Shown: positions 3,298 to 25,929 of the stretch, piece after piece
How positions within the stretch are numbered: the first letter of the stretch is position 1
How the letters are laid out: each line of letters begins with the position of its first letter
Assembly: GCA_036005065.1 (NCBI GenBank)
Contig: DASYQW010000028.1
Span: 1 to 32,222 of the forward strand
Source: Candidatus Methylomirabilota bacterium
Lineage (GTDB): Bacteria > Methylomirabilota > Methylomirabilia > Rokubacteriales > DASRDR01
Direction: 5' to 3'
Length of the DNA stretch: 32,222 bases
Position numbers and translations under genes: made by a program
The notes under the pieces: generated by a model
Told to the model about the DNA's origin: nothing
What the model saw: the letters and a program-made list of their open reading frames with translations, nothing else
Database searches by the model: none

Positions 3298-4379
3298 TGC
3301 GGCTCCCGCCGTTCACCTACCTCGCCCCGCGGCGGCTCGAGGAGGCGGCGCGACTCCTCGCCGAGCACGGTCCCGAGGCGATGGTCGTGGCGGGGGGAAC
3401 GGACCTCTATCCGAACATGAAGCGGCGGCAGTTCGAGCCGAGCGTGCTGGTGGGGCTGCGCGGGATCCGTGACCTCGCTCAGATCGCGGGGAGCGCCCGA
3501 GAGGGCATGCGGATCGGCGCCGGGGCGACGCTGACCCGCGTCGCCGAGCACCCCGAGGTGGCGACGCACTACACCGGGCTGGCCCGGGCCGCCGGGGTCG
3601 TCTCCACGCCCCAGCTCCGCAACATGGGGACCCTCGGGGGAAACGTCTGCGTCGACACGCGGTGTAACTACTACAACCAGTCCTACGAGTGGCGGAAGGC
3701 GATCGGCTTCTGCATGAAGAAGGACGGGGACATCTGCCTCGTGGCGCCGGGCAGCTCGCGCTGCTGGGCGGTCTCGTCGTCGGACACGGCCCCCGTCCTC
3801 TGGAGCCTCGGCGCCGAGCTCGTGCTGATCGGCCCGGCCGGCGAGCGGCGGATCCCGATGGCAGCCCTCTACCAGGACGACGGCATCCGCTACCTCCGGA
3901 AGGCGCCCGACGAGATCGTCGCCGAGATCCGGGTCCCGCCGGTGGACGGCTGGCGAGCCACCTACTGGAAGCTCCGGCGGCGCGGGGCGTTCGACTTTCC
4001 GGTGCTCGGCGTCGCCGCCGCCGTGCGGCTCGAGGGCGACGTCTGCCGGGAGGCCCGCATCGTGCTGGGCGCCGTCGCCTCCCAGCCCCGCGAGGCGCCC
4101 GCCGCCGCCCGGGTGCTGGTCGGCGAGCGCCTCACGCCCGAGGTGATCGAGCGTGCCGCCGGGGCGGCGGCCACGCCGTCGAAGCCTCTGGACAACACGG
4201 ATCTCGTTTACCACTACCGGAAGCGGATGACGCGCGTCTACGTGGCCCGGGCGCTGCGGGAGCTGGCGGGACTGCCGGTGGCGGGCGTCTGGCCCCTGGG
4301 CATGTCGGCCCGTCGCGGCGACGGGGAATGGCTACCTGACGAGGGACCGCATGGATCCGGAGAGAGCAGTCATGGCTGA
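3294..4379 (+). CDS. hcrB: 4-hydroxybenzoyl-CoA reductase, beta subunit (FAD, [4Fe-4S])
   Basis: FAD-binding subunit, 361 aa from ATG 3294 (ATG 3297 is also possible; both overlap the hcrA stop). VVAGGTDLYPNMKRRQ and TLGGNVCVDTRCN are typical of the FAD_binding_5 fold. The diagnostic feature is an insertion with C124, C140, C148 and C157. Spacings of 16, 8 and 9 equal those I recall for the [4Fe-4S] ligands C122/C138/C146/C155 of Thauera HcrB. Ordinary xanthine dehydrogenase FAD subunits lack this loop, so it separates a 4-hydroxybenzoyl-CoA reductase from other relatives. The protein is about 35 residues longer than Thauera HcrB. The extra tail (after LRELAGLPVAG) is low-complexity-like and its last codons overlap the boxC start. 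Confidence 0.92.
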   Translation: MMRLPPFTYLAPRRLEEAARLLAEHGPEAMVVAGGTDLYPNMKRRQFEPSVLVGLRGIRDLAQIAGSAREGMRIGAGATLTRVAEHPEVATHYTGLARAAGVVSTPQLRNMGTLGGNVCVDTRCNYYNQSYEWRKAIGFCMKKDGDICLVAPGSSRCWAVSSSDTAPVLWSLGAELVLIGPAGERRIPMAALYQDDGIRYLRKAPDEIVAEIRVPPVDGWRATYWKLRRRGAFDFPVLGVAAAVRLEGDVCREARIVLGAVASQPREAPAAARVLVGERLTPEVIERAAGAAATPSKPLDNTDLVYHYRKRMTRVYVARALRELAGLPVAGVWPLGMSARRGDGEWLPDEGPHGSGESSHG

Positions 4380-15264: not shown

Positions 15265-18200
15265 GCCCAGTGAGCGACGCGCAGCCAGGCGCCTCGAAAG
15301 GGCGCCGCGGGAAGGACCTCGGCGGCGTGCTGGTCACGGCGGCGACCCTGGTCGCCGTCGAGCTCCTGGCCCGCACCCCCTTCGCGCTCCCCGACCCCGC
15401 GCCTCTCTACTTCACGGCCGTCGTGTACGCGGCCGTCACCGCGGGCATCCGATCCGGGCTGATCGCCACCGCCCTCACGCTGGCCTATGCCGTGTACGAC
15501 CTGGCCGACCCCGGCCGGCCCTTCCACTACGCGCCCGCCAACCTCCACCGCCTCGTGGTGCTCACCCTCACCATCCCCGCGATCGCGCTCATGGTCGGGT
15601 TCCTCAGGCACCGCGCCGGGCGCATCCTCGAGAGCGCGGCCGCGGACGCCCTGCTGCGAGCCGCGATCGACCAGCGCGTCCGGGTGGAGACCTCCCAGTG
15701 GGAGAGCCGGAGCAAGATCCGGGAAGCCCGCCTGGCGGCCGAGCACGCGGTGGCGCGCGTCCTGGCGGAGGCGCCGGCCCTCGGCGACGCCGCGCCCGTC
15801 ATTCTGCGCGCCGTCGGCGAGAGCCTCGGGTGGGAGTTCGGCGGCTTGTGGATCGTGGACCGCGCCGCCCAGGTGATCCGGTGCGTCGAGGTCTGGCACG
15901 TGCCGGAGGACGCGTTTCCCGAGTTCGAGGCGCTCAGTCGGCGGACGGCCCTCCCGTCAGGCGCAGGCCTGCCCGGCCGGGTCTGGGCGAGCGGCGAGCC
16001 GGCCTGGATCACCGACGTGGTCCAGGACCCCAACTTCCCGCGGCTGCCGGTCGCGGCCAAGGAGGGGCTGCACGCGGGGGTCGGCTTCCCGGTCCGGATG
16101 GGTCGCGACGTGCTCGGCGTGATCGAGTTCTTCAGCCGGGAGATCCGGCCGGCCGACGAGGACCTGCTGCAGATGATGGCCAGCATCGGGAGCCAGATCG
16201 GCCAGTTCGTCGAGCGGAAGGACGCCGAGACGGCGCTCCGCGAGAGCGAGGCCCGCACCCGGGCCATCCTGGAATCGGCTCTCGACTGCATCATCACGAT
16301 GGACCACGAAGGGCGGATCGTCGAGTTCAACCCGGCCGCCGAGGCGACGTTCGGGTATCAGCGCCGGGAAGTGATCGGGAAGCCACTGGCGGAGGCCATC
16401 ATCCCGCCGGCGCTCCGCGAGGAGCATCGGGGGGGCTTGGCCCGCTACCTCGCCACCGGGGAGGGCCCGGTGCTCGGCCGCCGGATCGAGATGCCGGGGA
16501 TGCGGGCCGACGGCAGCGAGCTTCCCGTCGAGCTGGCGATCACGCGGATCGCCTGGAGCGGACCGCCGATGTTCACGGCGTACCTCCGGGACATCACCGA
16601 GCGGAAGCGCGCGGAGGCTGAACGCGCCGAGCTGATGACCCGCGAGCGGACGGCGCGGGCCGAGGCGGAGGCCGCCCGGGCGCGCTTCGCGTTCCTGGCC
16701 GAGGCCAGCACCGTGCTCAACGCCTCGCTCGACTACCCCACGACCCTGGCCAGCCTGGCCCGGCTGGCGGTTCCGCATCTGGGCGACTGGTGCGCGGTGG
16801 ACGTCGTCGAGGCAGACCGAACGATCCGCCGGATGGCGGTGACCCATGCCGACCCGGCGAAGATGGACCTGGCCCGCGAGCTCCAGCGTCGCTACCCCCT
16901 GGACCCGCACCGCTCGCACCCCATCGTGCGCGTGATCCAGACCGGCGTCCCCGAGATGGTGCCCGAAGTGTCCGAGGCGGAGCTCCGCGCCGTCTCTCGG
17001 GACGCCGAGCACCTCGAGCTCCTCCGTCAGCTCGGCTTCCGGTCGTACATGGCCGTGCCGCTCGTCACCCGCGGCCGGAGGCTGGGTGCCATCTCGTTCG
17101 CGTCGATGGTCCCCCGACGCTTCGGGCCCGCCGAGCTGGCGCTCGCCGAGGACCTGGCGCGCCGGGCGGCCTCCGCAGTCGACAACGCCCGGCTCTACCG
17201 CGAAGGGGAGGAGGCGAACCGCGCCAAAGACGAATTCCTGGCCACCCTGTCCCACGAGCTCCGTACCCCGCTGACCGCCGTGCTGGGGTGGACCCAGCTC
17301 TTGCGGAGCGCCCAGCTCGATGACGCCATGCGGACCCGGGCGATCGAGACGATCGAGCGGAACGCCCGCACCCAGGCCCAGCTGATCAACGGCCTCCTCG
17401 AGATCTCACGGATCGTGACGGGGAAGCTGAGCCTCGAGGTCCGGCCGCTCGACCTGCGGTCGGTGATCGAGGCAGCCCTGGAAACCGTGCGGCCGGCGGC
17501 CGAGGCCAAGCGCGTATTGCTCGACGCGGCCCTTCCGGCCTGGGTCGGGCCGGTGTCGGGCGATCCGGATCGCCTGCAGCAGGTCGTGTGGAACCTCCTG
17601 TCGAACGCGATCAAGTTCACGCCGGCGGGCGGACGGGTCGAGGTGCGACTCGCCCAGGCCGACGGCCAGGCCGAGATCCAGGTGAGCGACACCGGGCAGG
17701 GCATCCGGCCGGAGTTCCTCCCGTTCGTCTTCGACCGCTTCCGCCAGGCCGACAGCACGACGACGCGGTCGTTCGGCGGACTCGGGCTCGGCCTGGCCAT
17801 CGTGCGGCATCTCGTGGAGCTCCATGGCGGGCGGGTCGAGGCGACGAGCGAGGGTGAAGGCCAGGGGGCGACGTTCCGGGTGTGGCTGCCCCTCCTGGCT
17901 CCCACGCCGTCGAGCCCCGCCGACCCGGCCGGCCGGACGCGGCCCATCGGAGGCCCGGCGGGACAGGCGGCGCTCGGCGGGGTCCGCGTGCTTCTCGTGG
18001 ACGACGAGGCCGACGCGCGCGACCTGATCACCATGCTCCTGGCCCAGCTCGGGGCCGAGGTGACGGCGGTCGGCGGTGCCGCCGAGGCGGTCCAGGCGCT
18101 CGACCGAGCGGCCTTCGACGTCCTGGTGTCGGACATCGGGATGCCGGGGGAGGACGGGTACGCGCTGATGCGATCGATCCGGGCGCGTCCGCCCGATCAC

Positions 18201-18371
18201 GGCGGCCGGATCCCCGCGGTGGCGCTGACGGCCTACGCGCGGGCCGAGGATCGCGTGCGGAGCCGCGCGGTCGGATTCGAGCGGCACGTGGCGAAGCCGG
18301 TCGACCCCGAGGAGCTGATCGCGGCCGTCGTCGGCGTGGTCGGCCATGCCGGTCGCGAGGCAGCCGAGTGA
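15261..18371 (+). CDS. hybrid histidine kinase (TM-GAF-PAS-GAF-HisKA-HATPase-REC)
   Basis: 1036 aa from ATG 15261, overlapping the ligase stop (ATGA). Order: several hydrophobic helices resembling the KdpD-type DUF4118 domain (about 15-120), GAF (about 157-318), PAS (about 331-453, with LDCIITMDHEGRIVEFNPAAE), second GAF (about 476-647), HisKA with phospho-acceptor H665 (LSHELRTPL), HATPase_c from about 769 (NLLSNAIKF, DTGQGI, GLGLGLAIV), and a C-terminal receiver with D958 (VSDIGMPGEDG) and K in HVAKPVD. It lacks an output domain, so its phosphate must pass on to another protein not seen here. The signal is unknown; coupling to an aryl-CoA ligase hints at an aromatic or redox cue. Confidence 0.92.
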   Translation: MSPVSDAQPGASKGRRGKDLGGVLVTAATLVAVELLARTPFALPDPAPLYFTAVVYAAVTAGIRSGLIATALTLAYAVYDLADPGRPFHYAPANLHRLVVLTLTIPAIALMVGFLRHRAGRILESAAADALLRAAIDQRVRVETSQWESRSKIREARLAAEHAVARVLAEAPALGDAAPVILRAVGESLGWEFGGLWIVDRAAQVIRCVEVWHVPEDAFPEFEALSRRTALPSGAGLPGRVWASGEPAWITDVVQDPNFPRLPVAAKEGLHAGVGFPVRMGRDVLGVIEFFSREIRPADEDLLQMMASIGSQIGQFVERKDAETALRESEARTRAILESALDCIITMDHEGRIVEFNPAAEATFGYQRREVIGKPLAEAIIPPALREEHRGGLARYLATGEGPVLGRRIEMPGMRADGSELPVELAITRIAWSGPPMFTAYLRDITERKRAEAERAELMTRERTARAEAEAARARFAFLAEASTVLNASLDYPTTLASLARLAVPHLGDWCAVDVVEADRTIRRMAVTHADPAKMDLARELQRRYPLDPHRSHPIVRVIQTGVPEMVPEVSEAELRAVSRDAEHLELLRQLGFRSYMAVPLVTRGRRLGAISFASMVPRRFGPAELALAEDLARRAASAVDNARLYREGEEANRAKDEFLATLSHELRTPLTAVLGWTQLLRSAQLDDAMRTRAIETIERNARTQAQLINGLLEISRIVTGKLSLEVRPLDLRSVIEAALETVRPAAEAKRVLLDAALPAWVGPVSGDPDRLQQVVWNLLSNAIKFTPAGGRVEVRLAQADGQAEIQVSDTGQGIRPEFLPFVFDRFRQADSTTTRSFGGLGLGLAIVRHLVELHGGRVEATSEGEGQGATFRVWLPLLAPTPSSPADPAGRTRPIGGPAGQAALGGVRVLLVDDEADARDLITMLLAQLGAEVTAVGGAAEAVQALDRAAFDVLVSDIGMPGEDGYALMRSIRARPPDHGGRIPAVALTAYARAEDRVRSRAVGFERHVAKPVDPEELIAAVVGVVGHAGREAAE

Positions 18372-18418
18372 GCGGCGCCACCCGGGACCCGGCCCTCCCC
18401 CTGGCGCTGAATGGTTGG

Positions 18419-18424
18419 TATAGT
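18419..18424 (+). promoter_or_regulatory. -10 element before the sulfur-carrier gene
   Basis: TATAGT lies seven bases before ATG 18432, so transcription would begin at or next to the start codon. No -35 match is seen at 16-18 bases. The upstream in-frame ATG at 18411 would lie before this element, which argues for 18432 as the true start. Confidence 0.45.
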
Positions 18425-18431
18425 GGGCAGG

Positions 18432-18632
18432 ATGAAAGTCATCCTGCGGAACCGGGGCCAGGAGCTCACGCTGACGGGGCGCCGGCGGGTCAAGGACCTG
18501 CTGACCGAGTTGGGGGTCCTGCCCGAGACGGTGCTGGTGATCCGCGGCCGTGAGCTCTTGACGGCGGACGAGGTGGTCCGGGAGGACGACGTCGTCGAGG
18601 TGCGCCCGGTCATCTCGGGGGGTCGCCGATGA
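18432..18632 (+). CDS. TtuB/MoaD/ThiS-like ubiquitin-fold sulfur carrier
   Basis: 66 aa, the size of TtuB and MoaD proteins. The sequence has the beta-grasp layout: MKVILRNRGQELTLTG, helix VKDLLTELGVL, strand ETVLVIRGREL, acidic turn and EVRPVISGG. The di-glycine that is adenylated and thiocarboxylated in this family is at 63-64 but is followed by two arginines, so either the tail is trimmed or the protein works differently. The stop overlaps the start of the TtuA-like gene, which is the expected partner. With the AOR-family enzyme 2 kb downstream it could alternatively donate sulfur to the tungsto-/molybdopterin. Confidence 0.8.
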   Translation: MKVILRNRGQELTLTGRRRVKDLLTELGVLPETVLVIRGRELLTADEVVREDDVVEVRPVISGGRR

Positions 18633-19633
18633 AGTGCAAGAAGTGCGGCGGCCGCGCGGTGCTCGAGCTCCGGCGCCACAACACCGCCTTTTGCGCCGAC
18701 GACTTCCTCGGCTTCTTCCGGCATCACACGCTCGAGACCGTCCGGCGCTGGAAGATGTTCGGGCGCGAGGAGTCGGTGCTGGTGGCCGTGTCCGGCGGCA
18801 AGGACTCGCTGGCGCTCTGGGATGTGCTCCACGCGGCCGGCTACAACACGGCCGGGCTGTACATCGACCTCGGGATCTTCGATTACTCGCGCGAATCGAA
18901 GGCGAAGTGTGAGGTCTTCGCGGCCGAGCGGGGCGCCCGGCTGATCGTCGTCGGGGTGGCCGACGCCGTCGGCGCCGGCATCCCTCAGGTCAAGGACGTG
19001 ACCCGACGCCCCACCTGTTCGGCCTGCGGCCTCTCCAAACGCTACATCATGAACCGCGCCGCCCTCGAGCACGGCTTCGCGGTGGTCGCGACCGGCCACA
19101 ACCTGGACGACGAGGCCGCCACCCTGTTCGGCTCGACCCTCCGCTGGGACGAGTCCTCGCTCGCGCGCCAGAGTCCCGTCCTGGAGGCGACGCACCCCAA
19201 GCTGGTCCGGCGGGTCAAGCCGCTGTTCCGGCTGAGCGAGCGGGAGACGGCGGCCTACGCCTTCCTGCGCGGCATCGACTACATCGTCGAGGAGTGCCCT
19301 TTCGCGCGGGGCGCCACGTCGCTCGCCCACAAGGAGGTCCTCAACCGACTGGAGGACGTCTCGCCCGGCGCCAAGGCGGCGTTTCTCACCAACTATCTCG
19401 ACCGCGCGCGCCACCGCTTCCAGGCCGGCGACCCGGTCGACCTGCGCGAGTGCCTGCGCTGCGGGCAGACGACCACCGGCGAGGTGTGCGCGTTCTGCAA
19501 GCTCTCGGACCAGGTCCGCCGCGCGGGCCGGCCGCCCGCCGGCCCCCCGGGGGCGGCGGTTCCGACCGACCCGGCCGAGTCGCGCGGCCTGATCTCGGAC
19601 CTCCAGGCGGCGTCCGAGATCCACGCTTCCTGA
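18629..19633 (+). CDS. ttuA: TtuA-family tRNA 2-thiolation enzyme (ATP pyrophosphatase, Fe-S)
   Basis: 334 aa. N-terminal zinc site C3/C6...C22, PP-loop SGGKDS at 55-60, [4Fe-4S] ligands C130 and C133 (TCSAC) and C223 (EECPFA), GHNLDDEA at 157-164, and a C-terminal zinc ribbon C275/C278...C287/C290. The cysteine positions agree closely with Thermus TtuA as I recall it (C130, C133, C222). Family role: activates a uridine in tRNA with ATP and inserts sulfur taken from the thiocarboxylate of TtuB, giving 2-thiouridine at position 54. Start ATG 18629 overlaps the stop of the carrier gene. The tail after the last zinc ribbon is proline/alanine-rich and probably disordered. A role in cofactor sulfuration instead is possible. 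Confidence 0.88.
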   Translation: MKCKKCGGRAVLELRRHNTAFCADDFLGFFRHHTLETVRRWKMFGREESVLVAVSGGKDSLALWDVLHAAGYNTAGLYIDLGIFDYSRESKAKCEVFAAERGARLIVVGVADAVGAGIPQVKDVTRRPTCSACGLSKRYIMNRAALEHGFAVVATGHNLDDEAATLFGSTLRWDESSLARQSPVLEATHPKLVRRVKPLFRLSERETAAYAFLRGIDYIVEECPFARGATSLAHKEVLNRLEDVSPGAKAAFLTNYLDRARHRFQAGDPVDLRECLRCGQTTTGEVCAFCKLSDQVRRAGRPPAGPPGAAVPTDPAESRGLISDLQAASEIHAS

Positions 19634-19651
19634 CGGGCGCCCCGCGCCCCC

Positions 19652-20452
19652 GTGGCTCGACTGGCCCCGCTCCCCCCGGACGCCGACCAGGTCATCTTCG
19701 TCGGGTCGGGCGGCGGTCGGATGACCACGGCCCTGCAGGCCCGGTCCACCGGAGGCCTGTGGGTCGTCCTCGACGGCGCCCGTCTCCACGTGGACCCGGG
19801 ACCCGGCGCCCTCGCGCACGTGCGAGCGCGGACCCTCGCCCTGGATCCCGCCCGCCTCGACGCCGTCGTGCTCACCCACAAGCACCTCGATCACTCGGGC
19901 GACGTCAACGCCATGATCGAGGCGATGACGGAGGGCGGGACCCGTCCCCGCGGCCTGGTCCTCGCCCCCCGGGACGCCTACGAGACCGACCCCGTGATCC
20001 TGCACTACGTCCGCGCCTACGCGGGCAAGACCGAGGTCCTCGAGGCCGGCGGACACTACCCGATCGGAGACATGGTGCTCGAGACGCCGCTTCGGCTGCG
20101 CCATCCGGTCGAGACGTACGGCCTCCGCCTCGTCGGCCGCCGCCACACGATCGGGCTCATCGCCTGCACGGGGTATTTCCCGGAGCTCGAGACGGTCTTC
20201 CGGACCGACCTCCTGATCCTCAACGTCGTGTTCCGCGAGCCGCGCGACGAGATCCACCTGGCCCTCCCGGACGCCCGCCGCCTGATCGACGCCATCCGGC
20301 CCCGGCTGGCCGTCATCACGCACTTCGGGCTCACGATGCTGCGGGCGCGCCCCTGGGAGCTGGCCGAGGCGCTCAGCCACGACACGGGCGTGCGCGTCCT
20401 GGCCGCCCGGGACCGCTGGCGCCTCGGCCTCGACGACGCGCTCGGCGAGTAG
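19652..20452 (+). CDS. metallo-beta-lactamase-fold hydrolase
   Basis: 266 aa from GTG 19652, 18 bp after ttuA. The dinuclear metal motif is THKHLDHSGD (H76, H78, D80, H81), with a later histidine in VITHFGLTML. The beginning IFVGSGGGRMTTALQ resembles the GTGG strand of RNase Z-like members. C-terminal ARDRWRLGLDD is unremarkable. It could be a nuclease, a phosphodiesterase or a cofactor-processing hydrolase. Gene order (carrier, TtuA-like, MBL, then AOR) suggests a link to sulfur or RNA metabolism, but nothing in the protein fixes the substrate. A better upstream start is not visible. Confidence 0.82.
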   Translation: MARLAPLPPDADQVIFVGSGGGRMTTALQARSTGGLWVVLDGARLHVDPGPGALAHVRARTLALDPARLDAVVLTHKHLDHSGDVNAMIEAMTEGGTRPRGLVLAPRDAYETDPVILHYVRAYAGKTEVLEAGGHYPIGDMVLETPLRLRHPVETYGLRLVGRRHTIGLIACTGYFPELETVFRTDLLILNVVFREPRDEIHLALPDARRLIDAIRPRLAVITHFGLTMLRARPWELAEALSHDTGVRVLAARDRWRLGLDDALGE

Positions 20453-20481
20453 TTGACCCTCCTGCCGCATTCCGGTAGCGT
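20453..20481 (+). promoter_or_regulatory. promoter of the AOR-family gene
   Basis: TTGACC (20453-20458), 17 bases, TAGCGT (20476-20481). It starts directly after the stop codon of the metallo-beta-lactamase gene and gives the AOR gene its own leader of about 60 bases, with GGGGAGGA at 20533-20540. Confidence 0.5.
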
Positions 20482-20547
20482 AGGCTCGTTGCCAGACATG
20501 CCATCATCGCCGGCCTGGCGCCGGCGCACCCCGGGGAGGAATCGCGC

Positions 20548-22428
20548 ATGCCATCGGGCGTCATCGGCAAGCTGCTCCACGTCGACCTGACCACCCGCGA
20601 GACCCGCGTCGAGGAGGTTCCCGAGACGGTGCTGCGCCAGCACCTCGGCGGTGGCGCCCTGGCCGCCTACGTCCTGCTCCGCGACCTCCCACCCGGCGTG
20701 GATCCGCTGGGGCCGGACAACGTGCTCGTGTTCACGACCAGCGTGGTCAACGGGCTCTCGCTGTCGGGGACCAACCGCTACACCGCCGCCGCCAAGTCGC
20801 CGCTGACCGGCGGCTACGGGGAGTCGGAGGCCGGGGGATGGTGGGGTCCCGAGCTGCGGTCGGCCGGCTACGATGGCCTCGTCATCCGCGGCCAGGCCGA
20901 GGCGCCCGTCTACCTCTGGATCAAGGACGGCCAGGTGGAGATTCGGAGCGCCGAGGCGTACTGGGGCAAGCTCTCCGGTGAAGTGCAGGACGGGCTCGAG
21001 CAGGAGGTGAAGGACAAGCGCATTCGGGTGCTTCAGACGGGAATCGCCGGCGAGCGCGGCGTCCGCTTCGCGGCCCTCGTGAACCAGCTCAAGCACTTCC
21101 ACGGTCGGTGCGGGCTCGGGGCGGTGATGGGCGCCAAGCGGCTCAAGGCCGTCGTGGTACGCGGCACCAAGCCGCCGGTCGCTGCGGACAAAGAGGGGGC
21201 CAAGGGCACGCTGGTCTGGTTCCGGGAGCACCACGACCGCTCCAAGGACCGGTTCCACGTCTACGGGACCGCCGGCGGCGTCCCCGCCCTCGAGGCCAGC
21301 GGCATCCTGCCGACGCGAAATTTCCGTGACGGCTCCTTCGAGCACTTCCGGGCCATCAGCGGCCAGACGATGGCGGACACCATCCTGGTCAACCGCGGGA
21401 CCTGCTATGCGTGCGCCGTGGCCTGCAAGCGCGAGGTGGCGGTGCCCGAGCTGGACGTCACGCCCAAGTACGGCGGTCCCGAATACGAGTCGCTGGCGGC
21501 CTCGGGCTCGCTCTGCGGCGTCGGCGACCTCAAGGCGCTGGCCAAGATCAACCAGCTCCTGGCCCAGTACGTCCTCGATTCGATCTCGACCGGCGCCGTC
21601 ATCGCCTTCGCCATGGAGTGCTACGAGCAGGGCATCCTCACTCCGGCCGACACCGGCGGGATCGAGCTCACCTGGGGGAACGCCGGCGCGGTCGAGCAGA
21701 TGGTGCACCTCATCGGCCGGCGGGAGGGGATCGGCCGGCTGCTCGGCGAGGGCGTGAAGCGCGCGGCGGCGGCCCTGGGACGCGGCGCCGAGCGGTTCGC
21801 GCTGCACGTCAAGGGGCAAGAGCTCCCCATGCACGACCCGCGGGGCAAGAAGGGGCTGTCACTCGCCTACGCGCTCTCCCCCACCGGGGCCGACCACATG
21901 GAGGCGCCTCACGATCCGCTCTACGAGGGCTTCCATCCCCAGGGCCACCCGCTCGGTCCGCTCGGGCTCATCGAGCCGGTCAAGATGCTGGACCTGGGCC
22001 CGCGCAAGGTGCGCGCATTCTACCTCACCCAGCAAGTCTGGAGCCTCTACAACTCCGTCGGCATGTGCGATTTCGTGGGCACGCCGCTCAACGCGCTCGA
22101 TCTCGAGAAGCTGGTGGGCTACGTCAACAGCGTCACCGGCTGGAACATGAGCCTCTACGAGATGCTCAAGGTCGGCGAGCGGGCGAACACCCTCATGCGG
22201 CTCTTCAACTGCCGGGAGGGATTCACGACCGACGACGACATCCTGCCCCAGCGGATGCACGAGGGGATCGGCAACGGGGCGCTGAAGGGCGAGCGCGTGG
22301 ATCCGGACCAGTTCGTGGCCGCTCGGCGCCTGTATTACGAGATGGCCGGCTGGGATCCGGAGACGGGCCGGCCGACCGCGGCCAAGCTCGCCGAGCTGGC
22401 GGTGGACGAGGCGACGATCCGAAGCTAA
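20548..22428 (+). CDS. aor: aldehyde:ferredoxin oxidoreductase family W/Mo enzyme
   Basis: 626 aa. The [4Fe-4S] ligands are C286, C289 and C293 (TCYACAVAC) and C507 (SVGMCDF), close to C288/C291/C295/C494 of Pyrococcus AOR. Other family segments: GGGALAAYVLL, TNRYTAAAKSPLTGGYGES, GPEYESLAASGSLCG, MHDPRGKKGLSLAYALSPTGADH and KVGERANTLMRLFN. It would hold a bis-pterin tungsten or molybdenum cofactor and oxidise aldehydes to acids (or the reverse) with ferredoxin. BamB, the benzoyl-CoA reductase subunit, belongs to the same family. None of the other bam genes is present, so I keep the general name. ATG 20548 has a good binding site seven bases upstream. Confidence 0.9.
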   Translation: MPSGVIGKLLHVDLTTRETRVEEVPETVLRQHLGGGALAAYVLLRDLPPGVDPLGPDNVLVFTTSVVNGLSLSGTNRYTAAAKSPLTGGYGESEAGGWWGPELRSAGYDGLVIRGQAEAPVYLWIKDGQVEIRSAEAYWGKLSGEVQDGLEQEVKDKRIRVLQTGIAGERGVRFAALVNQLKHFHGRCGLGAVMGAKRLKAVVVRGTKPPVAADKEGAKGTLVWFREHHDRSKDRFHVYGTAGGVPALEASGILPTRNFRDGSFEHFRAISGQTMADTILVNRGTCYACAVACKREVAVPELDVTPKYGGPEYESLAASGSLCGVGDLKALAKINQLLAQYVLDSISTGAVIAFAMECYEQGILTPADTGGIELTWGNAGAVEQMVHLIGRREGIGRLLGEGVKRAAAALGRGAERFALHVKGQELPMHDPRGKKGLSLAYALSPTGADHMEAPHDPLYEGFHPQGHPLGPLGLIEPVKMLDLGPRKVRAFYLTQQVWSLYNSVGMCDFVGTPLNALDLEKLVGYVNSVTGWNMSLYEMLKVGERANTLMRLFNCREGFTTDDDILPQRMHEGIGNGALKGERVDPDQFVAARRLYYEMAGWDPETGRPTAAKLAELAVDEATIRS

Positions 22429-22456
22429 GGGGTGGGCGAGCTCTGGAGCCTCGCCG

Positions 22457-23089
22457 TCACGCCGGCGGTCGGACGCCCAGCTCGGCCAGCATCGCCCGGA
22501 GATCGTGGCCGCGGTCCACCCGGAAGAAGACCCCGCGCATCCCCACCTGCTCGGCGGCGCGCACGTTCGGCTCGGAATCATCCACGAAGACGCACGCCTC
22601 GGGGGGGAGCCCGAGCCGCTCGGCCGCCAGCCGGTAGATGGCGGGGTCCGGCTTGGCCATTCCCACCTCGGCCGAGCAGACCACGGCGTCGAACAGCTCG
22701 TGGATGCCCAGCCCGTCGCGGAGCCGGGTCGGTAGGGTGGCGTCGGCGTTGGACAGGATCGCGATCCGATAGGCCGGACGGAGGGCGCGCACGAGAGCCA
22801 CGGTCTCCGGGATCACGTGCTGGGCGCGGCGCCAGGCCTCGTGGACGCGGGGCAGTGGCCGCCCGGCCCGGGCTTCCAGCAGGCGATGCGCCTCGTCCAA
22901 CCACGCCTGGCGATCGCCCCGTCCGCACTGGATGGCGTCCCAGGCGGGGGTTCGATAGAGGGTCTCGAAGATCGCGCCGCGCGGAAGCTGGTGGGCGTCC
23001 TCGAGCTCCCGCGCGACATCCCAGCGCATGTCGTGGACGACACCGCCGAAGTCGAGGACGACCCCGCGGATCCCGCCGGGCGCGGTCAT
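22457..23089 (-). CDS. HAD-superfamily hydrolase (subfamily IA)
   Basis: 210 aa starting at the ATG complementary to 23087-23089, with GAGGTGAG just upstream. Motif I is VVLDFGGVVHD (nucleophile D13; the second aspartate is replaced by glycine, as in YihX- and dehalogenase-like members). Motif II is ILSNAD, motif III MAKPDPAIY and motif IV FVDDSEPNV. The cap helices lie between residues 20 and 95. It probably dephosphorylates a small metabolite; the missing second acid means a phosphatase role is less certain. It converges on the AOR gene (28-bp gap) and diverges from the glycosyltransferase gene. Confidence 0.87.
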   Translation of the reverse strand: MTAPGGIRGVVLDFGGVVHDMRWDVARELEDAHQLPRGAIFETLYRTPAWDAIQCGRGDRQAWLDEAHRLLEARAGRPLPRVHEAWRRAQHVIPETVALVRALRPAYRIAILSNADATLPTRLRDGLGIHELFDAVVCSAEVGMAKPDPAIYRLAAERLGLPPEACVFVDDSEPNVRAAEQVGMRGVFFRVDRGHDLRAMLAELGVRPPA

Positions 23090-23154
23090 CGGCTCACCTC
23101 GCGAGAGATCGGCGTGATGCGGATCGGCGGCTCCGGACGCGCCACGCGGAGAGC

Positions 23155-23184
23155 TTATCAGAGCGCCGCCGACCGTGCTAGCGT
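23155..23184 (+). promoter_or_regulatory. possible promoter of the glycosyltransferase gene
   Basis: TTATCA (23155-23160), 18 bases, TAGCGT (23179-23184), 11 bases before ATG 23196. The -10 is the same hexamer as before the AOR gene. The match is moderate. Confidence 0.35.
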
Positions 23185-23195
23185 GGACGGCTGCC

Positions 23196-24725
23196 ATGCC
23201 GGAACCGTGGGCAACCCGGGCGGCGCTCGCCGGCTTGGGGCTTCTCAGCCTGGCCGGGTATCGGCTCGGCCTTCCGCGACTCGGCGGCCACGGCTTCCCC
23301 ATTCACGAAGCATACGTCGTCCTCTCCCTGGGCCTCTTCCTCGTCTACCTCGCGGCGGTGACCGTGGTGCTCCGGCGGCCCTCGGCGGATCGCGTCGTGC
23401 TGGCCACGATCCTCGGCTTCGGGCTGCTCTTCCGGCTGGCGGTCCTGCCGAGCCCGGTCTTCCTTTCCTCGGACCTCTACCGGTACCTCTGGGACGGGCG
23501 CGTGCAGCTTGCCGGCATCAATCCCTATCGTTCCGCGCCGGAGGCGCCGGAGCTCGCCCGCCTCCGCGACGCGGAGATCCATCCGCGCATCAACCGGCCG
23601 ACCGAGCGCACGGTGTACCCGCCGGCCGCCGAGGCGGTGTTCGCGCTCGTCGCCGCCGTCGCGCCGAACAGCGTCGTGGGGTGGCGTGTGGTCGTTCTCG
23701 GCTGCGAGGGCGCGACGGTGGCGCTGCTCCTCGGCCTGCTGCGGCGGATGAGGACGGCCCCGTCCGCGGTCCTCGTCTACGCCTGGGCGCCGCTGGCCGT
23801 CCTCGAGGGCGTACAGGCCGGCCACGTGGACTTCGTGATGTTCCCGCTGCTCCTCCTCGCGCTCGGCTGGCGGCAGGCGGGCCGGATGACCGGCGCGGGC
23901 TTGGCCCTCGGCCTCGCGATCCTGGTCAAGCTCTATCCGGCCGTGCTCCTCCTGGTCTGGCACCGCCGCGGCGAGCGTCGCCTTCCGGCGGCCTGCGCCG
24001 GCGTCGTGGCCACGGGCTACCTCGCCTATCTCGGCGGGGTCGGCCCGCGGGTCGCCGGGTTCCTGCCCCGGTATTTCGGGACCGCGGAAGACTTCAACGT
24101 GGGGCTCCGCGCGTTCCTGACCGCGCCGGTGGACGCCGCGCTGAACGCGTCCCACTGGGAGGCCCTGGGGCGGTGCGGCCTCCGATTCCTCGCGCGCTTC
24201 GGCTACGTGGACCCGCGGGTTCCGATCGAGGCCCTCCTCCCGGCCGACGCCGAGCCACCCCTTCGCCAGGCGCTCGGGATGCCGTCCGCGGACGTGGGGA
24301 CGCTCCTGCTGGTCCAGGTCGGCCACGAGGTGGTCCGGGGCGTCGCCATGTTCGTCCTGCTCGCCCTGCTGGGGGCCGTGCTCGTCCGGCTCGGCCGGCG
24401 GCGATCCGAAGGCGCTGCCGGCGTCCTCGCCGCCGGCAGGGGAGCGGTGGCCGCCTATCTCGTTCTGGTCCCGACCGCCATGCACGCGTGGTACGCCGCC
24501 TGGATGCTGCCGTTCCTGACCCTTCAGCCTTCGCTGGCGTGGCTCTGGTTCACCGGGGCGGTGTCGCTGTCCTACCTGAAGTACGCCTGGGGCGACCTGC
24601 CGGTCTGGCTGCGTCTGATCGAGTACCTCCCACTCTACGGCCTCCTCGTGTGGGAGTGGGTCGCGGTGGTCTCGACGCGCTGGGCTCTCCACCGCGGTTG
24701 CGGGTCGGGCGCGGCGCCGGTATAG
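23196..24725 (+). CDS. GT-C (GT87/mannosyltransferase-like) polytopic membrane glycosyltransferase
   Basis: 509 aa with roughly ten hydrophobic segments. The first extracytoplasmic loop has SSDLYRYLWDGRVQLAGINP (about 91-110), the acidic-loop signature of enzymes that use polyprenyl-phosphate-linked sugars, with D93 and D100 as candidate catalytic acids. YPPAAEAVFAL, LAILVKLYPAVLLL and PTAMHAWYAAWMLPFL are further matches to the mannosyltransferase group. It would add a hexose to a glycolipid or cell-surface polymer. A GTG at 23175 is also in frame, but the candidate -10 element lies after it, so ATG 23196 is preferred. The stop codon lies inside the promoter of the next gene. Confidence 0.82.
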   Translation: MPEPWATRAALAGLGLLSLAGYRLGLPRLGGHGFPIHEAYVVLSLGLFLVYLAAVTVVLRRPSADRVVLATILGFGLLFRLAVLPSPVFLSSDLYRYLWDGRVQLAGINPYRSAPEAPELARLRDAEIHPRINRPTERTVYPPAAEAVFALVAAVAPNSVVGWRVVVLGCEGATVALLLGLLRRMRTAPSAVLVYAWAPLAVLEGVQAGHVDFVMFPLLLLALGWRQAGRMTGAGLALGLAILVKLYPAVLLLVWHRRGERRLPAACAGVVATGYLAYLGGVGPRVAGFLPRYFGTAEDFNVGLRAFLTAPVDAALNASHWEALGRCGLRFLARFGYVDPRVPIEALLPADAEPPLRQALGMPSADVGTLLLVQVGHEVVRGVAMFVLLALLGAVLVRLGRRRSEGAAGVLAAGRGAVAAYLVLVPTAMHAWYAAWMLPFLTLQPSLAWLWFTGAVSLSYLKYAWGDLPVWLRLIEYLPLYGLLVWEWVAVVSTRWALHRGCGSGAAPV

Positions 24726-24783: not shown

Positions 24784-25929
24784 ATGCCAGAGGCCGTCAT
24801 CGTCGAAGCCGTCCGCTCCGCAGTCGGGCGCAAGAACGGGACGCTCGCGGCGGTTCGCCCGGACGACCTGGCCGCCCACGTCCTCGCGGCCCTCGTCCGC
24901 CGGGCGGGGGTGGATCCGGTCCTCGTCGAGGACGTGATCTTCGGGTGCGTGGACCAGGTGGGGGAGCAGGGATTCAACATCGCGCGCAACTCCGCCCTGA
25001 TCGCCGGCCTGCCGCTCGACGTCTGCGGTGTCACGCTCGACCGCATGTGCGGCTCGGGGCAGCAGGCGGCGAACTTCGGCTTCGGCATGGTCGTCTCGGG
25101 GCAGCACGACTGCCTGATCGTGGGCGGGGTCGAGAACATGAGCCGCGTCCCCATGGGCTCGAACGCCCAGGGTCCCGGCGAGGGTCCCATCAGTCCCAAG
25201 CTGACCGAGCGCTACCAGATCGTGCCGCAGGGGATCTCGGCCGAGCTGATCGCCGAGAAGTGGGGGCTCGGCCGCGCCGAGCTCGACGAGTTCGCGGCCC
25301 AGAGCCACGAAAAGGCGGGCCGGGCGATCGCCGAGGGGCGGTTCAAGCGGGAGATCGTGCCGGTGCCGCTGCCGGACGGCTCCCTATTCGACACCGACGA
25401 GGGTGTGCGGGTGCCGGTGAACCGGGAGAAGATGGCCAGCCTCGCCCCCTCCTTCAAGCCGGACGGCGTCGTCACGGCCGCCAACTCGAGCCAGATCTCG
25501 GACGGGGCCGCGGCCCTCCTCCTGATGTCGCGGGAGCGGGCCCAGGCCCTCGGGCTCCGCCCTCGGGCGCGGTTCGTCGCCTCCGCGCTGGCCGGCGTGG
25601 ACCCGACGATCATGCTCACGGGCCCCATCCCGGCGACCCAGCGCGTCCTCGCCAAGGCCGGACTGGCGCTCGCCGACATCGACCGCATCGAGATCAACGA
25701 GGCGTTTGCCTCGGTGGTGCTCGCCTGGGAGCGGGAGCTGCGGCCCGACATGTCGAAGGTCAACGTGAACGGCGGGGCGATCGCGCTCGGGCACCCCCTC
25801 GGCTGCTCGGGGGCGAAGCTCCTCACCACGCTGCTCTGCGAGCTGGAGCGGTCGGGAGGCCGGTTCGGCCTTCAGACGATGTGCATCGGCTTCGGCCAGG
25901 GCATCGCGACGATCATCGAGCGGCTCTGA
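24784..25929 (+). CDS. acetyl-CoA C-acyltransferase (thiolase)
   Basis: 381 aa, normal thiolase length. The acyl-accepting cysteine is C89 in DRMCGSGQQA; the other catalytic motifs are NEAFA, GGAIALGHPLGCSGAK (histidine) and TMCIGFGQG (second cysteine; the more usual form is CIGGG). The loop ENMSRVPMGSNAQGPG resembles biosynthetic/degradative acetyl-CoA acetyltransferases. It could cleave 3-oxoadipyl-CoA at the end of the box pathway or 3-ketoacyl-CoA in fatty-acid oxidation; the sequence alone does not choose. It has its own promoter and is followed four bases later by a miniprotein gene. Confidence 0.92.
   Translation: MPEAVIVEAVRSAVGRKNGTLAAVRPDDLAAHVLAALVRRAGVDPVLVEDVIFGCVDQVGEQGFNIARNSALIAGLPLDVCGVTLDRMCGSGQQAANFGFGMVVSGQHDCLIVGGVENMSRVPMGSNAQGPGEGPISPKLTERYQIVPQGISAELIAEKWGLGRAELDEFAAQSHEKAGRAIAEGRFKREIVPVPLPDGSLFDTDEGVRVPVNREKMASLAPSFKPDGVVTAANSSQISDGAAALLLMSRERAQALGLRPRARFVASALAGVDPTIMLTGPIPATQRVLAKAGLALADIDRIEINEAFASVVLAWERELRPDMSKVNVNGGAIALGHPLGCSGAKLLTTLLCELERSGGRFGLQTMCIGFGQGIATIIERL

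Follow-up and report, generated by a model that had tools for sequence, protein, structure and literature searches.

The closest described relative of the locus analyzed here is the TtuA/TtuB system of Thermus thermophilus, which is connected to m5s2U54 in tRNA and whose TtuA has the same catalytic and zinc-binding residues as the protein encoded in our locus. In the Thermus loci L024 and L028, the carrier gene is located directly upstream of the TtuA gene, as it is here; the differences from the T. thermophilus system are carrier residues past the Gly-Gly, an extra metallo-beta-lactamase-fold (MBL) gene, and the lack of a detected TrmFO. A second type of neighborhood concerns the aldehyde ferredoxin oxidoreductase (AOR) family, i.e., AOR-type MoaD genes that adjoin AOR genes, as described in the accessible portion of Iyer, Burroughs, and Aravind (2006; PMC1779556). 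In our locus, too, a ubiquitin-fold carrier is encoded near an AOR gene, at a distance of about 2 kb, whereas the carrier is strictly adjacent in the clusters of that excerpt; here, TtuA and MBL lie in between, and a TtuB-like carrier is paired with TtuA.

The window, i.e., the complete analyzed stretch of 32,222 nucleotides, is contig C28 of a 5.6-Mb Rokubacteriales genome (419 contigs). The four genes reported in an earlier note on this DNA are present with the given place, strand, and order according to domain matches and coordinates (Table 1). The designation of TtuA as a "thiolase" in the title of that note is a misnomer: the protein is a sulfurtransferase, and the true thiolase is encoded further downstream. 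In our reading, to which we assign a probability of roughly 80%, TtuB, TtuA, and MBL form a tRNA thiolation unit, the AOR gene was inserted beside it, and AOR receives its sulfur from MoaD/MoaE. As a finding about AOR, this is ordinary, and TtuA/TtuB belongs to a known kind; the loose ends are the carrier tails, the MBL partner, and the presence outside known thermophiles.

Table 1. Coordinates of the features discussed in the text
Feature	Position	Strand	Support
TtuB-like ubiquitin-fold sulfur carrier, ending ...VISGG-RR-stop	18432..18632	+	PF02597 ThiS, 23.4 bits (cut-off 22.5)
Arg-Arg tail after carrier Gly-Gly	18624..18629	+	read from sequence
TtuA-type tRNA 2-thiouridine sulfurtransferase	18629..19633	+	phmmer match to 5b4e (T. 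thermophilus TtuA), 3.9e-98; catalytic and zinc-binding cysteines conserved
MBL-fold protein	19652..20452	+	PF12706, 72.3 bits
AOR family enzyme, neighbor outside the unit	20548..22428	+	PF02730, 240 bits; PF01314, 411 bits
HAD-family hydrolase, between MBL and thiolase	22457..23302	-	PF00702, 85.2 bits
GT87-like glycosyltransferase, between MBL and thiolase	23175..24725	+	PF09594, 35.6 bits
Acetyl-CoA acetyltransferase-type thiolase, follows MBL or TtuA in relatives	24784..25929	+	

The TtuB-TtuA-MBL unit

The match to the Thermus protein covers residues 1 to 301 of the window's TtuA, followed by matches to Pyrococcus TtuA 3vrh (4.3e-74) and, much weaker, to the U34 thiolase 6scy (3.6e-28), and the domains PF01171 (40 bits) and PF22082 TtuA_LIM_N (38.1 bits) were both found above their cut-off of 27. 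The PP-loop SGGKDS, Cys130, Cys133, Cys223, and Lys137, whose roles we assign as in the excerpts available of PMC3980101 and PMC7138817, are invariant in all 80 TtuA homologues from many phyla. The zinc-finger ligands of the window protein (C3, C6, H17, C22, and four C-terminal cysteines) are all present; the seven cysteines among them are invariant in 80/80 homologues and His17 is kept in 75/80. The protein misses the cut-off of the NCBIfam TtuA equivalog NF049949, a model named after Pyrococcus (282.8 versus 450 bits), and reaches that of TIGR00269 (63 versus 62.75). Judged by residues and homology, it is of the TtuA type, though not an NCBI equivalog, and since all TtuA catalytic residues are kept, thiolation of tRNA U54 is the best reading.

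The carrier frame overlaps that of TtuA by 4 bases (ATGA). In whole-genome scoring, the carrier obtained a ThiS score of 22.3 bits, just below the cut-off of 22.5. Its closest counterparts are the carriers encoded next to Thermus TtuA (7e-17 and 3e-16), whereas none of the other 8 ThiS-fold proteins in its genome matches it better than 2e-4. A carrier gene directly upstream of TtuA was detected in 65 of 80 loci and none was detected in the remaining 15.

The MBL gene follows TtuA after 18 bases. Full-length MBL occurs in 8 of the 95 genomes of the phylum, in each case directly after TtuA and on the same strand; one further fragment is located at a contig edge of G020, and G072 has a broken remnant at the same place after TtuA (L099). 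Among the 80 TtuA loci, the MBL profile recovered only L007 and L008 and a weak match in L058; L007 and L008 match G094:C253 and G093:C122, so that the 80-locus and 95-genome surveys partly overlap. The carrier, TtuA, and MBL genes (18432-20452) are a conserved unit, in which MBL is the third gene in a part of the order, and AOR is a neighbor outside this unit. A benzoate-CoA-ligase-like gene lies upstream of it in the window and in L194 and L195 from sister families.

The predicted MBL structure has a mean pLDDT of 79.3, with values below 50 at residues 1-5, 20-31, and 52-58; no metal geometry is claimed because of these stretches. The predicted fold matches the YhfI/ELAC-like protein 6kns (Z 20.7, rmsd 3.0 over 226), tied with RNase Z 4gcw (Z 20.5, rmsd 2.8 over 225). 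The HxHxDH motif (H76, H78, D80, H81) is invariant in 8/8 proteins, as in RNase Z, whereas the motif-4 Asp of YhfI/RNase Z-type proteins, which in 1zkp we take to be the metal-bridging ligand, is replaced by Cys172 in 8/8 proteins aligned against 1zkp. An assignment as RNase Z was rejected, as this Asp is missing. Class B1 beta-lactamases have a Cys at the matching metal-site position, and by analogy a zinc site with Cys is possible in MBL. Candidates for its substrate are tRNA, conjugates of the carrier, and small metabolites.

The thiolated base and the proposed mechanism

In Thermus, TrmFO supplies m5U54, and in Thermococcales m5s2U54 is made with a SAM-dependent methylase. TrmFO was over the cut-off in 0/60 genomes of the order, including that of the window (in most, 16 candidates were scored). 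The usual m5U54 substrate may hence be lacking, which lends some weight to the alternative that TtuA thiolates the wobble U34 or another RNA site, like archaeal NcsA. We regard this as unlikely: MnmA is over the cut-off in 53 of the 60 genomes, again including that of the window, and position 34 is therefore served; the window's TtuA scores far higher with the TtuA model than with the NcsA model (118.2 bits); and a COG2265-type methyltransferase (PF05958), which could make m5U54, is over the cut-off in 55/60 genomes. Moreover, s2U54 without methylation has been reported for Sulfolobus acidocaldarius, as stated in the available part of PMC7912444. By analogy with these systems, the product of the window's TtuA may be m5s2U54 formed via a SAM-dependent methylase, or s2U54.

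For the preferred reading, thiolation at U54, the course of the reaction would be as follows. The carrier would be trimmed to its Gly-Gly. Following the established TtuA/TtuB chemistry, an E1-like enzyme encoded at another site would then adenylate it, and it would be thiocarboxylated; the window's genome has three ThiF/E1-like matches. The thiocarboxylated carrier would dock on the [4Fe-4S] cluster of TtuA (Cys130, Cys133, Cys223), which would adenylate the T-loop uridine of the tRNA, presumably at position 54, and swap in the sulfur. MBL would act as an accessory hydrolase.

The neighboring AOR gene

The AOR of the window matches 1aor over its full length (7.9e-106) and contains the AFOR_N and AFOR_C domains. 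Its CxxCxxxC motif (CYACAVAC) and the Cys aligned with the distal Cys of 1aor are kept; these residues are presumably the cluster ligands. Searches with three AOR queries detected no AOR in 80 TtuA loci from many phyla, of which 52 extend 3 kb or more to both sides and 74 extend 1 kb or more downstream, and likewise none in 20 Rokubacteriales loci. The survey of TtuA-AOR co-occurrence proposed in the earlier note thus places the carrier-TtuA pair away from AOR in all surveyed loci (80/80 and 20/20), the window itself excepted, which agrees with the genomic half of the refutation that the note set out for its sulfur route. Among the matches listed for the 95 genomes of the phylum, 59 genomes contain TtuA and 78 contain AOR, and the two are unassociated (both 50, TtuA only 9, AOR only 28, neither 8; Fisher P = 0.42). 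Orthologues of the window's AOR (at least 70% identity) occur in 33 genomes, 28 of them with TtuA, and in 27/27 other genomes the AOR orthologue and TtuA are located on different contigs (all among the matches listed; compared by hand in fragmented assemblies). In 20 orthologous loci plus the window, with antisense shadow frames left out, no recurrent neighbor of AOR was found in more than 4 of 21.

The gene order of relatives is indicative of how AOR came to its place. A thiolase with 67 to 82% identity to that of the window is located downstream of TtuA in 13 of 20 Rokubacteriales loci; 7 of the 20 have an MBL gene. The thiolase directly follows MBL in 6/6 testable relatives, separated from it by roughly 40 to 620 bases, and in the seventh locus the contig ends about 250 bases past MBL. 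In the window, the AOR, HAD, and GT87 genes fill the place between MBL and thiolase, and because the two adjoin directly in all six relatives, AOR looks inserted. An insertion of these three genes in the window looks simpler than repeated loss elsewhere and would be the probable direction of the change.

AOR lies on the same strand, 95 bases after MBL, and neither a sigma-70-like promoter nor a terminator was found within 18100-22600; co-transcription of carrier, TtuA, MBL, and AOR may therefore occur. On these grounds it is conceivable, albeit improbable, that the four genes are transcribed together and AOR is coregulated with tRNA thiolation, e.g., as both are oxygen-sensitive iron-sulfur systems. 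Against this, the arrangement TtuB-TtuA-MBL-AOR was seen in the window's genome only, and the AOR start is preceded by its own purine-rich stretch.

The genome has other candidates for the supply of AOR sulfur. MoaE is encoded at G000:C338:8387-8725, with a MoaD-like match 16 bases before it (C338:8146-8370), and a second AOR (G000:C33:25623-27118, in L222) has genes for a pyridine nucleotide-disulfide oxidoreductase and for a ThiS-fold carrier next to it, which matches the AOR-linked MoaD arrangement in the excerpted part of PMC1779556. The notion of a dedicated route, in which TtuB and TtuA deliver dithiolene sulfur for the tungstopterin cofactor of the window's AOR, draws on their adjacency in this one genome and on AOR genes that, in the same excerpt, adjoin a distinct type of MoaD, but it can be dismissed as highly improbable: TtuA adjoins AOR in no other surveyed locus, the presence of the two is unassociated across the phylum, the carrier is TtuB-like and thus other than the AOR-linked kind, TtuB-TtuA-MBL occurs without any AOR among the matches listed in G093 and G094 from sister families (genome completeness 73 and 84%), 28 genomes have AOR without a TtuA match among those listed, and the same genome holds both MoaD-MoaE and a separate MoaD-linked AOR. 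The other option of the earlier note, in which these genes modify tRNA and just happen to lie close to AOR, is supported by the separation of AOR and TtuA in the surveyed loci and by the kept TtuA residues. AOR would obtain its pterin sulfur from the ordinary MoaD/MoaE system of the genome, and the seemingly attractive connection of tRNA thiolation to the maturation of tungsten enzymes turns out to be wrong.

Carrier tails and occurrence outside known thermophiles

In the carrier of the window, the Gly-Gly is followed by Arg-Arg and would be exposed only upon trimming. Such extensions are frequent: of the 65 carrier homologues, 44 continue for 1 to 21 residues past Gly-Gly, 3 are fused to TtuA, and 18 stop at Gly-Gly. 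The fusions, with TtuB-TtuA as one open frame, are from Actinomycetota (L015, L063, and L076); a junction Met is absent in L063 and L076, and in L015 it could restart TtuA. A tail after Gly-Gly as a TtuB-specific trait was rejected, as 7 of the remaining 8 ThiS-fold proteins encoded in the window's genome are tailed (loci L155-L162), including a MoaD-like one adjoining MoaE. The frequent tails suggest a general trimming of ThiS-fold carriers in this genome. A JAMM protease as a TtuA-specific partner was likewise rejected, since PF14464 matches occur in 92/95 genomes and are uninformative; no PF14464 match was found in the tailed-carrier genomes G093 and G094, which are 73 and 84% complete. At G000:C253:3088-3787 (in L224), a ThiS-fold carrier match and a JAMM (Prok-JAB) match (3398-3787) lie in succession, about 50 bases apart.

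To our knowledge, the host order of the window is not a known thermophile group. TtuB-TtuA was frequently found outside known thermophile groups, in lineages from groundwater and soil and in those of Nitrospira. According to the accessible portion of a 2018 review (PMC6313347), m5s2U54 is not found in mesophiles, and our literature search, as far as the texts were available, brought up no recognized report of a mesophilic TtuA or a tailed TtuB. If position 54 is thiolated in these lineages, its role would exceed heat protection alone. A tentative extension, which we consider possible at best, is an apparently mesophilic and widespread T-loop thiolation, in which the carrier would be synthesized in an inactive form (with a tail or fused to TtuA), proteolysis would gate sulfur loading, and, in a part of the Rokubacteriales, an MBL hydrolase with a Cys in its metal site would have become a dedicated component. 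If true, this mesophilic version would break the rule of a thermophile-specific thiolated position 54. The TtuB-TtuA of L062 and L079, which are titled as a Bifidobacterium breve MAG, resembles that of other Actinomycetota MAGs, and these titles may be wrong.
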